This document shows, one piece after another, positions 36,414 to 62,889 of a stretch of DNA of 64,000 bases. The position numbers and the translations under genes are program-made. The notes beneath the pieces are model-generated. The model was given only the letters and a program-made list of their open reading frames with translations. It ran no database searches and was not told the origin of the DNA. Source of the stretch: a bacterium (GTDB lineage: Bacteria; Electryoneota; Electryoneia; Electryoneales; Electryoneaceae); NCBI GenBank assembly GCA_020444265.1, contig JAHLLH010000010.1, positions 62,001 through 126,000 on the forward strand, written 5' to 3'. Numbering within the stretch: the stretch's first letter is position 1; each line of letters begins with the position of its first letter.

Positions 36414-38705
36414 ATGGCGCATTCAGCAAACCTGGGATTCCCTCGATTCGGGGTGAACCGTGAGTGGAAAAAAGCAAGTGAACGGTACTGGTCTGGCAAA
36501 CTCACGCGGGAGGAGATGTTGGCGACTGCCGACGATCTCATGATGCGCCATTGGATGCTTCAGAAAGAGGCTGGAATCGATATTATTCCGGTCAATGATT
36601 TTGCCTTCTACGACCACGTTCTTGATACCATCGCCCTGCTCGGTGCGGTTCCTGCACGATACAACCATCCTGCGGGCAGCCAGGTGGATGTTGATACCTA
36701 TTTCGCGATGGCGCGAGGTCGTCAGGACGCCACGACCGATGTGACCGCGATGGAGATGACCAAGTGGTTTGATACCAACTACCACTATATCGTCCCCGAG
36801 CTGAGTGGTGATATGCAGTTCCAAATCGCCAGCGAACGACCTTTTGAGGCGGTAGAGAAGGCACGTTCTGTGGGAGTCGAAAATCCACGCCCAGTTCTGC
36901 TTGGCCCCGTTTCCTTTCTGCTGCTCGGTAAGACTGTGGAGGATGGGGTTGAACTGAACGAACTCCTTAATAGACTGCTTCCGGTTTATACCGAAATCCT
37001 CCAGCGCTACAAGGATATGGGGATTCAGCAGGTTCAGATCGATGAACCCACCTTGGTCCTTGATCTAAATGATGAGGCGGTGGCGCTGTTCCGCACTGCC
37101 TACGACCATTTCGCAACCCGGAACGAGCGTCCCGACCTGCTCGTCGCGACCTATTTCGGTACCATCGAACACAACCTTGAATTGGCTGCTTCCCTCGCGG
37201 AAGGTCTGCATATTGATCTCGTCCGTGCACCGGGGCAGTTGAATGCGGTGGCTGGGGTATTGGGTGAGAGCCAGATACTTAGCCTCGGTGTGGTTGATGG
37301 ACGGAATGTCTGGCGCACCGACTTGGAACGTGCGCTCCGGATGGTGAAAGAGGGAGTGGAGATACTCGGCTCGGACCGTATTCAGCTCGCACCATCCTGC
37401 TCGCTGCTGCACAGCCCGATTGATCTGGAACGTGAAACGAAGATGGACCCGGATGTCCTCGAGTGGCTTGCTTACGGAAAGCAGAAGCTGGAAGAAATCA
37501 ACGCTTTGACCCTCGCTGCAAATGGTAAGCAGGATGAGGTAGCGGATTTCTTTGATGCCAACGCGAAGGCTGTACAGAAACGACGTTCCAGCAGCAAAGT
37601 GACCAACCCGGCGGTGCAGGAACGGATGGCGAAGCTGAACGACGATATGGCACGTCGCTACACCCCCTTCAACGAGCGCATTCGAATCCAGCAGGAAAAA
37701 CTGCATCTGCCGCCCTACCCGACCACTACTATCGGCTCGTTCCCGCAGACAAAAGAGGTCCGTCGTCTGCGGGCGAACCTGAAAAAAGGTGAGATCACCC
37801 AGCAACAGTATGATGATGCGATTGCCGAAGTCACCCTTGATACCATTCGGTTCCAGGAAGAAGCGGACCTCGATGTGCTGGTGCATGGTGAGTTTGAACG
37901 CAACGACATGGTAGAATACTTCGGCGAACAGCTGGATGGATTCGTCTTCTCGCAGAATGGCTGGGTGCAGTCCTATGGCAGCCGTGGTGTCAAACCTCCG
38001 ATCATCTTCGGCGACATCAATCGGCCGGGGCCCATGACAGTCAAGTGGTCCAAGTTCGCGAAGGATCATACGGACCGTCCAATGAAAGGCATGCTCACCG
38101 GTCCTGTGACTATCCTGCAGTGGTCGTTTGTGCGTGACGATCAGCCGCGGAAGACCACCTGCGAGCAGATTTCCCTTGCCATACGAGATGAGGTTGTCGA
38201 TTTAGAAGCGGCGGGGATTGATGTGATCCAGATTGACGAACCCGCCATTCGCGAAGGGTTGCCTTTGCGCAGGCAAGATTGGGCGGACTACCTCGATTGG
38301 GCGGTGCGCTGCTTCCGCATCAGCGCCAGCGGCGTGCAGGATCAAACCCAGATCCACACCCACATGTGCTACAGCGAGTTCAATGACATGATCGAGAGCA
38401 TTGCGGCGATGGATGCCGATGTTATCTCGATTGAAGCGAGCCGCAGCAGAATGGAGCTGCTCGACAGCTTCGACAGTTTTGTCTACCCCAACGACATCGG
38501 TCCCGGAGTCTGGGACATCCACTCACCGCGTGTCCCGTCCCGTGATGAGATGGTCGAACTGCTCGAAGCGGCTCTGAAGCATGTGCCAAAAGAGCGCTTG
38601 TGGGTTAATCCTGACTGCGGATTGAAGACTCGCGGTTGGGAGGAGACACGAACCAGTGTCCGCAATATGGTCGAGGCTGCGAAAGCCTTACGCGAACGGG
38701 CGTAG
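36414..38705 (+). CDS. metE: Cobalamin-independent methionine synthase
   Basis: Transfers the methyl group of 5-methyl-tetrahydropteroyl-glutamate to homocysteine. 763 aa, full length. N-terminal GFPRFGVNREWKKASERYWS and C-terminal catalytic half with YPTTTIGSFPQTKEVRRLR. The zinc ligands are visible: HTHMCYSEF (His and Cys), SIEASRS (Glu) and WVNPDCGLKTRG (Cys). AAGGAG lies 12 nt upstream of ATG 36414. I saw no SAM or cobalamin riboswitch in the 139-bp leader. It is followed by a terminator and the REPIN-like element, then by the MTHFR fusion that would make its methyl donor. Confidence 0.96.
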   Translation: MAHSANLGFPRFGVNREWKKASERYWSGKLTREEMLATADDLMMRHWMLQKEAGIDIIPVNDFAFYDHVLDTIALLGAVPARYNHPAGSQVDVDTYFAMARGRQDATTDVTAMEMTKWFDTNYHYIVPELSGDMQFQIASERPFEAVEKARSVGVENPRPVLLGPVSFLLLGKTVEDGVELNELLNRLLPVYTEILQRYKDMGIQQVQIDEPTLVLDLNDEAVALFRTAYDHFATRNERPDLLVATYFGTIEHNLELAASLAEGLHIDLVRAPGQLNAVAGVLGESQILSLGVVDGRNVWRTDLERALRMVKEGVEILGSDRIQLAPSCSLLHSPIDLERETKMDPDVLEWLAYGKQKLEEINALTLAANGKQDEVADFFDANAKAVQKRRSSSKVTNPAVQERMAKLNDDMARRYTPFNERIRIQQEKLHLPPYPTTTIGSFPQTKEVRRLRANLKKGEITQQQYDDAIAEVTLDTIRFQEEADLDVLVHGEFERNDMVEYFGEQLDGFVFSQNGWVQSYGSRGVKPPIIFGDINRPGPMTVKWSKFAKDHTDRPMKGMLTGPVTILQWSFVRDDQPRKTTCEQISLAIRDEVVDLEAAGIDVIQIDEPAIREGLPLRRQDWADYLDWAVRCFRISASGVQDQTQIHTHMCYSEFNDMIESIAAMDADVISIEASRSRMELLDSFDSFVYPNDIGPGVWDIHSPRVPSRDEMVELLEAALKHVPKERLWVNPDCGLKTRGWEETRTSVRNMVEAAKALRERA

Positions 38706-38728
38706 ACACCGCTCATGATTTGATGTGA

Positions 38729-38753
38729 AACGCCCGGTCCACCGGGCGTTTTC
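38729..38753 (+). terminator. Rho-independent terminator after metE
   Basis: AACGCCCGGT (38729-38738) and ACCGGGCGTT (38741-38750) form a GC-rich stem with a very tight loop, followed by TTC. It lies 24 nt after the metE stop. Confidence 0.6.
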
Positions 38754-38771
38754 TCGATATTTCTGTCAGTG

Positions 38772-38906
38772 GCTTGGGTGCCCCGCCACCCAAGCGTGCA
38801 TATCAGCACAGTTTCGTGTTGACTTGCGGACCGGGAGAATCGGACCGTCGGCAGGACATATCATTTTTGTGCTGAAATGCGAGCCCGGGTGACGGGGCAC
38901 CCGGGC
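38772..38906. repeat. REPIN-like pair of inverted hairpin repeats
   Basis: Two 39-bp arms in opposite orientation flank a 57-bp spacer. Arm 1 (38772-38810) is a hairpin GCTTGGGTG-CCCCGC-CACCCAAGC followed by a 15-nt tail ending CAGCACA. Arm 2 read on the minus strand (38906-38868) is GCCCGGGTG-CCCCGT-CACCCGGGC followed by a tail also ending CAGCACA. The arms agree at 31 of 39 positions, and four of the eight differences are paired compensatory changes within the stem. It lies between metE and the MTHFR fusion, ending 41 nt before the next ATG. Confidence 0.75.
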
Positions 38907-38947
38907 CACTTGCAGGTTCCTCATCAGGATAGAGGGACGGGGGAAAG

Positions 38948-40879
38948 ATGAAGAGTTTTCTCGAACGGATTGAACGAGGTGTGCTACTCGGTGATGGTGC
39001 GATGGGGACCCAGCTCTATGAACGCGGGGTCTACATCAACCGGAACTATGACGACCTTAATCTCTCCGATCCCCACATCGTAAAAGCTGTCCACCGTGAC
39101 TACATGCAGGCCGGTGCGATGGTGATCGAGACGAACACCTTTGGTGCAAACTCGATCAAGCTCGGCAAGCATGGTGTGGCGGATAAGGCTTATGAGATCA
39201 ACAAAGCCGGAGCAGAAATTGCCCGGCGTTGTGCTGATGAAGGTGCCAATGTGTTGGTGGCCGGAAGCATAGGCCCGCTTGGCAAACCGGTCACACCCAT
39301 CGGCAAGATCAGCGATGACGAGGCGATGAATGCCTTCAGCGAGCAGGCACGTGGCTTGAATGATGGCGGCGTTGACCTCTTCATCCTCGAAACCTTCCTC
39401 GATTTGCACGAGATCCTGCTCGCGATCCACGCCGTTCGATCCAGCAGTGACAAGCCGATTGTGGCGATGATGACCATCGACCACACCGGGATGACGGTCT
39501 ACGGGCGATCTCCGGCTCAAATCGCCGGAGCTCTCGCATCAGAACCGGTTGAGGTGATCGGCCTCAACTGTTCAACCGGTCCCCAGACCATCCTCGATGC
39601 CATCGTGCAGATGCGCGAAGTCACCGACAAACCGCTTGCCGCGTTCGCCAACGCTGGTGAGCCGAAGATGGTAGATGGACGCATCATCTACCTCTCCACT
39701 CCCGAATACTTTGCGGAATACACGAAACGTCTCATCCAGAACGGCGTTCGCTTTATCGGGGGCTGCTGCGGGACGGGACCGAGCCACATCAAGTCGATGG
39801 CGAGCGCGATCCGTGCCCTGCAACCGCGTGATGTCATGCTGGGCGATGATGCGACTGTCGATATTGCGGTTGAGACGGGGGAGGGGATAGAAAACGTAGA
39901 TGTTACCCTTGCACCTCGTGCGGAAAGGTCCAACCTCGGCAAGCTGCTCGACCAGGGAGTCTTTCCGGTATCCTGCGAGCTTCACCCACCGCGTTCCCCA
40001 GAGATCGGACGGATTCTACGTCAGGTGAAAATGCTTGACGCCGCCGGGATCAATGTGGTTAACATTCCCGATGGTCCGCGTGCCTCGGCGCGCATGAGCC
40101 CAATGGCCCTCGCGCATCTGATTATGTCCCAGACAGGGATGGATACCATCCTGCATTATACCTGTCGTGACCGCAACATCCTCGGGATGCAGTCGGACCT
40201 ACTGGGCGCGGAAGCACTCGGAATTAACAACATCCTCGCAGTCACCGGCGATCCCCCGAAGCTGGGTGATTACCCGATGGCAACGGCGGTCTTTGATGTC
40301 GATGCAATCGGCCTGTTGCGCATCGCCTCGCACCTGAACCAGAGCCGTGACCTCGCGGGTAATCCAATCCCACGCCCCACAACCTTCTTCCTGGGGGCGG
40401 GTTTCAATCCCGGCGCAATCGATATGAAGCTCGAGGTGAGCCGCTTGCACGAGAAAATCGAAGCGGGCGCGGAGTACATCCTCACACAGCCGGTCTTCGA
40501 CCAGGAGAAGCTGGTCGCATCGCTTGAGATGACGGGGAAACTTGATGTTCCGATCTTTGTCGGGATCCTGCCGCTTGCATCGCTACGTAATGCGGAGTTT
40601 TTCCACTACGAAGTCCCCGGGATGGATGTCCCCGATGCGATCCGTGCCCGAATGAAAGAGGCGTCCGCCAAGGGACGTGAAGAGGCCGCCGCTGAGGGAG
40701 TTGCCATCGCCCAGGAAGCGCTTCTCTCCGTCCTCGAGCATGTCCAAGGCGCCTACATCATGCCGCCTTTTGGTCGAGTTGAGCTTGCGATTGAGACGGT
40801 GAGTGTGCTGAGGGGAAGACCTTCGCTTCAGGAAGTCGAAGTGAAGGTGGGGAATGGGGACAATCCTCTAAAGGGGTGA
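38948..40879 (+). CDS. Bifunctional homocysteine S-methyltransferase / 5,10-methylenetetrahydrofolate reductase
   Basis: Two-domain protein of 643 aa. Residues 1 to about 290 are a homocysteine methyltransferase: LLGDGAMGTQLYERG, VIETNTFGANS, GLNCSTGP and FIGGCCGTGPSHI (three zinc Cys). From about residue 335 it is methylenetetrahydrofolate reductase: FPVSCELHPPRSPEIGRILR, HYTCRDRNILGMQSDLLGAE, NILAVTGDPPKLGDYP and EYILTQPVFDQEKLVAS. No cobalamin-binding or activation domain is present, as in YitJ-type fusions. It would supply methyl-folate to MetE and may itself methylate homocysteine from another donor. Its stop overlaps that of the DUF116 gene by 12 bp, tail to tail. Confidence 0.93.
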   Translation: MKSFLERIERGVLLGDGAMGTQLYERGVYINRNYDDLNLSDPHIVKAVHRDYMQAGAMVIETNTFGANSIKLGKHGVADKAYEINKAGAEIARRCADEGANVLVAGSIGPLGKPVTPIGKISDDEAMNAFSEQARGLNDGGVDLFILETFLDLHEILLAIHAVRSSSDKPIVAMMTIDHTGMTVYGRSPAQIAGALASEPVEVIGLNCSTGPQTILDAIVQMREVTDKPLAAFANAGEPKMVDGRIIYLSTPEYFAEYTKRLIQNGVRFIGGCCGTGPSHIKSMASAIRALQPRDVMLGDDATVDIAVETGEGIENVDVTLAPRAERSNLGKLLDQGVFPVSCELHPPRSPEIGRILRQVKMLDAAGINVVNIPDGPRASARMSPMALAHLIMSQTGMDTILHYTCRDRNILGMQSDLLGAEALGINNILAVTGDPPKLGDYPMATAVFDVDAIGLLRIASHLNQSRDLAGNPIPRPTTFFLGAGFNPGAIDMKLEVSRLHEKIEAGAEYILTQPVFDQEKLVASLEMTGKLDVPIFVGILPLASLRNAEFFHYEVPGMDVPDAIRARMKEASAKGREEAAAEGVAIAQEALLSVLEHVQGAYIMPPFGRVELAIETVSVLRGRPSLQEVEVKVGNGDNPLKG

Positions 40880-61158: not shown

Positions 61159-62889
61159 TTACTCTTCCATGCTGGCAACAAAACCCTGGTTGGCAAGGTA
61201 GACAAGAATCTTGTGGGTCGCCTCTTCCGGGGTCAGTTCGGTCGTGTTAATCACGATCTCGGCATCTTCCGGGGTTTCGTAGGGATCGGAAATCCCTGTG
61301 AATTCCTTGATGATACCGGCACGAGCCTTGGCGTAGAGTCCCTTACGGTCTCGCTCTTCGCAGACTTCCAGCGGTGTCGCGACATGCACAAGGATAAACC
61401 CGCCGAGGGGTGCCACCATCTCACGGACTTCCTTACGAATATTGTCGTAAGGAGCGATCGGCGCGCAAATCGCGATGCCGCCATTTTTGGTGATCTCGCT
61501 GGCCACCCAGCCGATACGACGGATGTTGATGTCGCGGTGTTCCTTGCTGAAGCCCAGCTCGCTGGAGAGATTCTTTCGAACCAGGTCGCCGTCCAGCAGG
61601 GTCAGAGGACGATCTCCGCGCTGCATCAGCTTGGTCGACAGGGCGTTCGCGATGGTCGACTTGCCGGAGCCGGAAAGGCCGGTGAAGAAGACGGTATAGC
61701 CCTGCTTGTTGCGCGGCGGGAAGGTGCGACGAAGCTCCTTGGCCACTTCCGGGAAGGTGAACCATTCGGGAATGGCACGGCCTTCACTCAAACGTTGACG
61801 CAGCTCGGTGCCAGAAATCGACGAAGTCTTGGTGCCTTCCGGGACCTCGTCAATCGGCATGTACTGGTCTTCGTCCGGAAGATAGACCATCATCTTGAAC
61901 TCGACCATTTTTACGCCAAGCTCTACTTCATGCTGCTTGAGAAGTTCCTGCGCATCGTACGGGCCATAGAAGGGCTTGCCACTGCTGTCCGAACCGGGAC
62001 CGGCATGGTCACGTCCAACGATCAGGTGGGTGCAGCCATAGTTCTTACGGATGATGGCATGCCAGAGCGCTTCGCGAGGGCCGCCCATGCGCATCGCCAG
62101 CGGGAGCAGGCTGAGCATGGTAGTCTGCTGCGGATAGTGCGACAGCAGTTCTTTGTAGCAACGGACACGGGTGAAGTGATCGACATCGCCCGGTTTGGTG
62201 GCACCGACGACCGGGTGCACGAGCAGGTTGGCCTCGGCGGTACGTGCTGCTTGGCGAGTCAGCTCAAAATGTGCGCGGTGCATCGGGTTACGGGTCTGGA
62301 AAGCGACCACGCGACGCCAGCCGCGCTTGTTGAACTGGTAGCGTAGCTCTTCTGGTGTATTGCGAAGGTCGACGAAATCGTAGTAGAAGGGTATCTGCGC
62401 ACCTTCGATACGTCCGCCGAGGTACACAGTGCCAGTCTGGTTCATCAAGTGCGCGACAGCCGGATGCTCGGTATTGGTCGTACCAAATACCTTTTCGGCC
62501 TCAACGTTTTTGTCCGGGGTCCAGATATCCTCAACATGCAGTACGGCAAGCATGACACCTTCGGCATCACGCAATGCAACCTTCGATTCCCCAGCCTTCA
62601 GGGTAGAGGCAAATTCTTCACTGACATCGAGCGTGATCGGCATAGGCCACAAGGTGCCATCAGGTAGACGCATGTCATTACAAACGCCATCATACTCACT
62701 TTTAGTCATGAAGCCCTGCAGCGGGCTGAAACCGCCATTCATCAGCAATTCGAGATCAAAAAGCTGACGCTCTTTCAGATCATGAGAGGGCCAATCGCGA
62801 GATTCGGACTTTAATGCTTCCTGACGGGCATCGTCCGCGATCAGGTTGACAAGTTTCCCACCATGGGGGGAAATCAGATGGTCTTCCAT
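61159..62889 (-). CDS. Bifunctional sulfate adenylyltransferase / adenylylsulfate kinase (PAPS synthase)
   Basis: Makes PAPS from sulfate and two ATP in one polypeptide. 576 aa from ATG 62889. The N-terminal ATP sulfurylase part (about 1-390) has FQTRNPMHRAHFELTRQAAR (HxxH), VGRDHAGPGSDSSGKPFYGP and SISGTELRQRLSEG. The C-terminal APS kinase (about 395-576) has FFTGLSGSGKSTIANALSTK (P-loop), LDGDLVRKNLSSELGFSKEH and GLYAKARAG. The sulfurylase-then-kinase order is that of Met3-like/Aquifex-type fusions. Without APS or PAPS reductase genes here, its product most likely serves the two sulfotransferases. A CRP-like site lies about 200 nt upstream. Confidence 0.95.
   Translation of the reverse strand: MEDHLISPHGGKLVNLIADDARQEALKSESRDWPSHDLKERQLFDLELLMNGGFSPLQGFMTKSEYDGVCNDMRLPDGTLWPMPITLDVSEEFASTLKAGESKVALRDAEGVMLAVLHVEDIWTPDKNVEAEKVFGTTNTEHPAVAHLMNQTGTVYLGGRIEGAQIPFYYDFVDLRNTPEELRYQFNKRGWRRVVAFQTRNPMHRAHFELTRQAARTAEANLLVHPVVGATKPGDVDHFTRVRCYKELLSHYPQQTTMLSLLPLAMRMGGPREALWHAIIRKNYGCTHLIVGRDHAGPGSDSSGKPFYGPYDAQELLKQHEVELGVKMVEFKMMVYLPDEDQYMPIDEVPEGTKTSSISGTELRQRLSEGRAIPEWFTFPEVAKELRRTFPPRNKQGYTVFFTGLSGSGKSTIANALSTKLMQRGDRPLTLLDGDLVRKNLSSELGFSKEHRDINIRRIGWVASEITKNGGIAICAPIAPYDNIRKEVREMVAPLGGFILVHVATPLEVCEERDRKGLYAKARAGIIKEFTGISDPYETPEDAEIVINTTELTPEEATHKILVYLANQGFVASMEE

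Follow-up and report, generated by a model that had tools for sequence, protein, structure and literature searches.

Between metE and the gene for a bifunctional homocysteine S-methyltransferase/MTHFR, two GC-rich hairpins stand in opposite orientation, which raises the question of whether they are a mobile repeat or an RNA element that serves the downstream gene. The window, i.e. the whole 64-kb stretch of DNA analysed, corresponds to positions 62001–126000 of contig C13 in a 4.33-Mb assembly (19 contigs, 94% complete). The host belongs to Candidatus Electryoneaceae in the phylum Candidatus Electryoneota of the FCB group; Candidatus Electryonea clarkiae (G001) is a genome of the same family. 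We are highly confident that the hairpins are two members of a REP family that depends on a RAYT, standing inverted with their heads outward as a doublet, and that this doublet has inserted between the two genes.

Structure of the hairpin pair

Copy 1 (GTGGCTTGGGTGCCCCGCCACCCAAGCGTGCATATCAGCACA, 38769–38810, forward strand) and copy 2 (GTGGCCCGGGTGCCCCGTCACCCGGGCTCGCATTTCAGCACA, 38868–38909, reverse strand) are 42-nt units composed of a GTGG head, a 9-bp stem, a 6-nt loop and a tail that ends in TCAGCAC. More specifically, the stem of copy 1 is formed by positions 38772–38780 and 38787–38795 around the loop CCCCGC, and the tail is GTGCATATCAGCACA. In copy 2 the GTGG head is at 38909, the stem is formed by 38898–38906 and 38883–38891, the loop is CCCCGT and the tail is TCGCATTTCAGCACA. 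Copy 1 is a member of the CTTGG-stem subfamily (72.3 bits with the covariance model, E = 1.6e-15) and copy 2 of the CCCGG-stem subfamily (64.7 bits, E = 2.0e-13). The heads point outward and the tails inward, and a 57-nt spacer (38811–38867) separates the tails. The preliminary description of this locus had delimited two opposed 39-nt arms (38772–38810, forward; 38868–38906, reverse) with 31 of 39 positions identical, which is correct to the base, and its 9-bp stems, CCCCG(C/T) loops and CAGCACA tail ends are likewise found here. The REP element exceeds these arms at each outer end by 3 nt, which hold the first three letters of the GTGG head (38769 and 38909). Four of the eight differences between the arms make up two compensated pairs, TT/AA versus CC/GG.

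The entire inverted-repeat unit spans 38763–38915, has 48-nt arms that are 79% complementary and can be folded as one long hairpin. It has the shape of a REPIN (two inverted REPs, a short spacer, one hairpin), and it is the sole copy of the REP family inside the window. A second mini-hairpin in the tail (GTGC-ATATCA-GCAC) was considered as well; it is possible in copy 1, not in copy 2, and the tail variants TTGCAT and GAAGCAT break it.

Copies in the genome and the cognate RAYT

With a covariance model trained on 32 copies, 81 REP places at E<1e-3 are identified in the genome. This is a lower bound, since the scoring covered 150 of the 3179 first-look candidates. A search with the tail GCATNTCAGCAC added a few places to these, and a DNA search gave 68 matches, with both strands of one palindrome counted. 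The hairpin with its tail thus recurs about 80 times and is not unique in the genome. The conserved stretch starts at GTGG and ends at CAGCAC, and the outer flanks look unrelated; in most of the listed copies GTGG is present at the 5' foot of the GC-rich hairpin. The base before GTGG is biased to A (48 of 81 copies; 42 of 81 have AA or CA), perhaps as a signature of the target or the cut site. As expected of REPs, the copies are mostly extragenic: 19 of 75 lie wholly inside long ORFs as compared to 81% of random positions. This placement is approximate, as the gene model is a rough, ORF-based one, and the extragenic bias is if anything understated because some of the long ORFs are probably spurious. 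The covariance model finds no copy of the host REP in six genomes of the same family.

Two further observations concern the surroundings of the copies. At C6:109320–109633 (L130:1521–1833) two REPs 228 nt apart have identical 30-nt downstream flanks, i.e. a tandem duplication has carried the REP along. Other repeats (e.g. CTGGGGATGACAG) often adjoin REPs, for instance at L019, L020, L081, L120 and L135, so that several repeat families together form a mosaic in the intergenic regions.

In the host genome five genes match Pfam Y1_Tnp. The 64-kb window holds no RAYT gene, in agreement with the preliminary description, and neither does its contig C13. On another contig, C1, a gene for a protein of 182 aa (341035–341580) is bracketed by inverted copies of the same REP; in the coordinates of this locus (L034) a forward REP is at 1280–1321, the RAYT at 1414–1962 and a reverse REP at 1969–2010. 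Such bracketing of a RAYT by two inverted REPs is a known arrangement (PMC2817692). The protein scores 97.3 bits with NCBIfam NF047646 (REP-associated tyrosine transposases; cut-off 80), and its Pfam Y1_Tnp score of 20.7 bits is just below the cut-off of 23. It carries the motifs MPDHVH and YIHGNP, and its HUH histidines and tyrosine are invariant in 15 relatives; together with the NF047646 score they mark a Y1 protein of the RAYT type rather than of IS200. The closest solved relative by family profile is 4er8, the E. coli TnpA-REP, and the tyrosine of YIHGNP is aligned with Y115 of that protein. Previously it has been shown that Y115F is a catalytic mutant of E. coli TnpA-REP (PMC8266576). 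Flanking copies and sequence identity indicate that the L034 RAYT is cognate to the host REP family, and the family has almost certainly been spread by this RAYT encoded elsewhere in the genome. The REP/RAYT reading put forward earlier is therefore borne out by about 80 copies and by a RAYT flanked by inverted copies.

Between the left REP and the RAYT gene (L034:1317–1413) the REP tail has two further tandem repeats at 40-nt intervals (CAAGCTTGCATTTCAGCAC). These extra tails may have been left behind by cleavage at the tail end, or they may serve as a regulatory array.

Insertion site

Is the pair an RNA element of the downstream gene? metE (cobalamin-independent methionine synthase; 36414–38705) and the MTHFR fusion gene (38948–40879) are both on the forward strand, and the junction between them is 242 nt in the window, of which the inverted unit takes 153 nt. 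The doublet region folds with −96.6 kcal/mol (z-score −9.0), and none of 200 shuffles is equally stable. So stable a transcript region would suit an RNA-level regulator of the MTHFR fusion (a riboswitch, an attenuator or an mRNA-stability hairpin) that resembles a repeat by accident, as would the distance to the ATG, which lies 41 nt past the end of the second hairpin, as had been noted before. However, the REP sequence adjoins unrelated genes in both orientations at its roughly 80 occurrences. Moreover, a scan with Rfam riboswitch and sRNA families gives 16.8 bits at best as compared to gathering scores of 43 and 38, so no family reaches its threshold. In three relatives of the family, too, the MTHFR gene directly follows metE. 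Their junctions measure about 49, 336 and 91 nt up to the first aligned residue, and none of them contains such a REP. Taken together, an RNA regulator that looks like a repeat by chance is very improbable, and the RNA role in the downstream gene that the preliminary description had kept as an alternative is not supported.

Our results suggest instead that the doublet entered the metE–MTHFR junction in the host lineage. The relatives belong to other genera, and their junctions have no evident match to the window junction from which a precise pre-insertion site could be read. The G-rich stretch preceding the ATG of the MTHFR fusion is intact. Most likely the pair at this site is a neutral or tolerated insertion that spared the start region of the MTHFR fusion gene. 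A local effect of the doublet on the mRNA is possible, with no sign of a conserved one, and a conserved RNA role at this junction is not supported. The double hairpin before the MTHFR gene is thus a mobile repeat rather than a conserved RNA regulator.

Upstream of the doublet there is a terminator-like hairpin of metE at 38728–38751 (forward strand; AACGCCCGG TCCA CCGGGCGTT TTCTC) that is distinct from the REPs. This hairpin has no match in the consensus terminator scan, and the promoter and terminator scan of the junction finds none.

Stem covariation and subfamilies

Among 77 copies, 96% of the stem cells form standard pairs. Changes on both sides of a pair number 31, as compared to a mean of 5.3 and a maximum of 12 in shuffled data; the REP stem is under selection. 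Pair 6–25 is seen as T-A, C-G, A-T and G-C, and pair 7–24 as T-A, C-G and G-C. Because both pairs vary across copies, the difference TT/AA versus CC/GG between the window arms is a genome-wide split. In the same 77 copies, CTTGG stems occur 50 times, mostly with GTGCAT-like tails, and CCCGG stems 10 times, never with GTGCAT tails. The preliminary description was right that the four paired differences keep the stem; however, these changes separate subfamilies across the genome, and the copies compared indicate that they did not arise at this site.

The window doublet combines one CTTGG and one CCCGG member. The remaining two close doublets are likewise CCCGG plus CTTGG-like, at C13:148517/148630 (second arm CTCGG) and C1:345403/345480, and so is a looser head-outward pair on contig C10. 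Heterodimers of REPs with different stems are known in other REP families (PMC3733652).

What is moved, single REP or doublet

Regarding the unit that is spread, 69 of the 81 copies stand alone as singlets, the nearest other copy being more than 400 nt away, and their mean pairwise identity (0.828) is about equal to that in the close doublets (0.819). For P. fluorescens SBW25 the corresponding shares are 61% of the REPs in doublets and 18% as singlets; the doublets are better conserved and the singlets are read as dead remnants (PMC3116915). A strict REPIN interpretation of the host family would in the same manner have the whole doublet replicate and the singlets be decayed remnants that have lost one arm. 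Several observations fit it: the close pairs (gap <100 nt), only three in number, are all head-outward, with a chance of about 0.001–0.004 for three or more such pairs; inverted tail motifs downstream of copies (≤1 mismatch) are found 9 times as compared to 0.4 expected, a count that takes both members of a pair; and the cognate REPs of one relative, G026, are mostly head-outward doublets. On the other hand, the singlets are in excess and no more decayed than the doublet members, the inverted tail remnants are few in number, the spacers of the three close doublets have no visible similarity to each other, and for at least 68 copies no second arm (tail, ≤2 mismatches) can be recognised within 250 nt downstream. 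The host family is thus not one of mostly doublets with the doublets better conserved, and we consider replication of the whole doublet unlikely, though clearly worth keeping in mind.

The inverted ends around a short unrelated middle, and a RAYT gene with the same ends, could also be taken to mean an ordinary MITE, an internally deleted transposon derivative with terminal inverted repeats, and a MITE is what the preliminary description had named as an alternative. Yet most copies are single ends, every arm is itself a hairpin like the substrates of Y1 enzymes, the doublet spacers are unrelated to each other and unlike the interior of the RAYT element, and by eye there is no target-site duplication at the ends. 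There is hardly any probability left for a MITE, for which a related interior and a target-site duplication would be expected. Derivation of the doublet by internal deletion of the RAYT element was also considered and rejected, as the spacers are by eye unlike the RAYT flanks.

From the copy statistics we infer that the RAYT mostly spreads a single long-tailed REP. As head-outward pairs exceed chance, doublets are real products of the process, though not the main one. Of the earlier REPIN reading, an inverted REP pair of a RAYT system holds; the doublet as a mobile unit does not clearly follow. It is important to note that singlets outnumber doublets in this genome without greater decay, a case that is relevant to what a RAYT moves.

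Proposed mechanism and comparison with known systems

By analogy with E. coli TnpA-REP, the RAYT would bind the single-stranded REP hairpin exposed at replication, with GTGG serving as the recognition or guide sequence; its tyrosine would cut near the end of the conserved tail, and the cut strand would be pasted elsewhere. The main spreading unit would be the single long-tailed REP, and the close doublets would be pairings of one CTTGG-like and one CCCGG-type REP. Analogous enzymes are known from E. coli, Stenotrophomonas and Marinomonas, and when the Marinomonas REP was changed from GTAG to GTGG, cleavage at CA still occurred (PMC8266576). In the host, 38 of 81 copies have an A after the CAGCAC of the tail end, which fits a cut between C and A without proving it. 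It is quite possible, although we put it forward tentatively, that the FCB RAYT clade works on REPs with long tails (GTGG as the guide, then a hairpin and a 9–14-nt tail, with the cut at the tail end around TNTCNNNAC, like one end of an IS200/IS605 transposon) and that in the host genome the single REP moves.

This kind of element is already known. REPtrons, i.e. REPs with their RAYT/TnpA-REP, have been described for P. fluorescens PF17 (GTGGCGAGGGAGCTTGCTCCCGCT) and for Stenotrophomonas (PMC2817692, PMC3686654), and the host family shares with them the GT(A/G)G head, the GC-rich hairpin with compensatory stem variation, the mostly extragenic position, tens to hundreds of copies and a RAYT flanked by two inverted REPs. 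In contrast, the host REP is 42 nt long with a conserved tail of 14–15 nt after the stem, as compared to about 23–26 nt for the REPs listed there, and the host RAYT, in Electryoneota, is far from proteobacterial RAYTs. The REPINs of SBW25 (PMC3116915) have in common with the host doublet the head-outward inverted arrangement that folds as one hairpin; unlike in SBW25, the host singlets dominate and are conserved equally with doublet members. GTAG-24 of P. aeruginosa consists of heterodimeric GTAG REP dimers, and GTAG-20 of O. terrae has GTGG heads (PMC3733652), so that partners with different stems and the GTGG head variant both have precedents. However, the host differs from the GTAG dimers in sequence family, phylum and tail length, the tails of GTAG-1 and GTAG-2 being 3 bp (PMC3733652). 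The E. coli TnpA-REP with its BIMEs (PDB 4er8; PMC8266576) is the closest solved protein; the HUH motif and the catalytic tyrosine are conserved in the host RAYT, and a hairpin with a 5' tetranucleotide is the substrate in E. coli as it would be in the host. E. coli REPs have GTAG and a stem bulge that is required (PMC8266576), whereas the host REP has a perfect stem and GTGG. What is new is the occurrence in the little-studied Electryoneota, together with the long tail and the singlet excess as distinguishing points.

RAYT systems in the phylum and in the host genome

RAYTs of the same clade occur throughout the phylum with 38–47% identity, and several relatives have GTGG hairpins of their own beside their own RAYT. 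In G026 the hairpin at the RAYT flank, with its tail TTTCNTTAC, has 47 matches, and in G033 a GTGG-headed tailed REP of its own has 26 matches, mostly single. At several relatives (e.g. L039, L041, L147) an automatic search for GTRG hairpins beside the RAYT finds none, so a REP of this kind is seen in a part of the clade. Judging by these comparisons, the architecture of head, hairpin and tail seems to belong to the RAYT clade and the sequence itself to vary within it, which is what co-evolving REP/RAYT pairs would show. Well-formed REP/RAYT systems are thereby extended to the candidate phylum Electryoneota, and a candidate cut site is suggested by the tails that are conserved in two related RAYT systems. 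In Zixiibacteriota (L160, JAHIVM010000128.1, downstream of 2754) a RAYT has a tandem array of at least five GTGG REPs behind it, spaced by about 82 nt; most of these REPs have a tail like AACTAGACAGCAGC.

Four more RAYT-like genes are encoded in the host genome, and every one of them has a palindrome of its own next to it. The second REP/RAYT system, GTAGGCCGGATT-CTTG-AATCCGGC, occurs at 51 places genome-wide and includes 11 head-outward doublets with gaps of 61–109 nt, i.e. classical REPINs; its RAYT (L032:59–562, reverse strand, on contig C1; NF047646 127 bits) directly adjoins one doublet. The third RAYT-like gene (L035:1308–1930, C11:414218–414840) has GTCAGGTC...GACCTGAC palindromes on both sides, and this palindrome is found at 102 places in 20-nt and 30-nt forms. 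A fourth RAYT (192 aa; L033:1383–2103 on contig C2) is bracketed by GGCCCGACACTTCAGTGTCGGG in inverted orientation, and the core palindrome is present 30 times. The fifth Y1 transposase (218 aa; L031:1362–2141 on contig C10) lies between two long AT-rich palindromes (TTATTAGTGACAGTTACTAATTAGATTAATTAGTAACTGTCACTAATAA) and looks like the TIR-flanked (TIRYT) kind.
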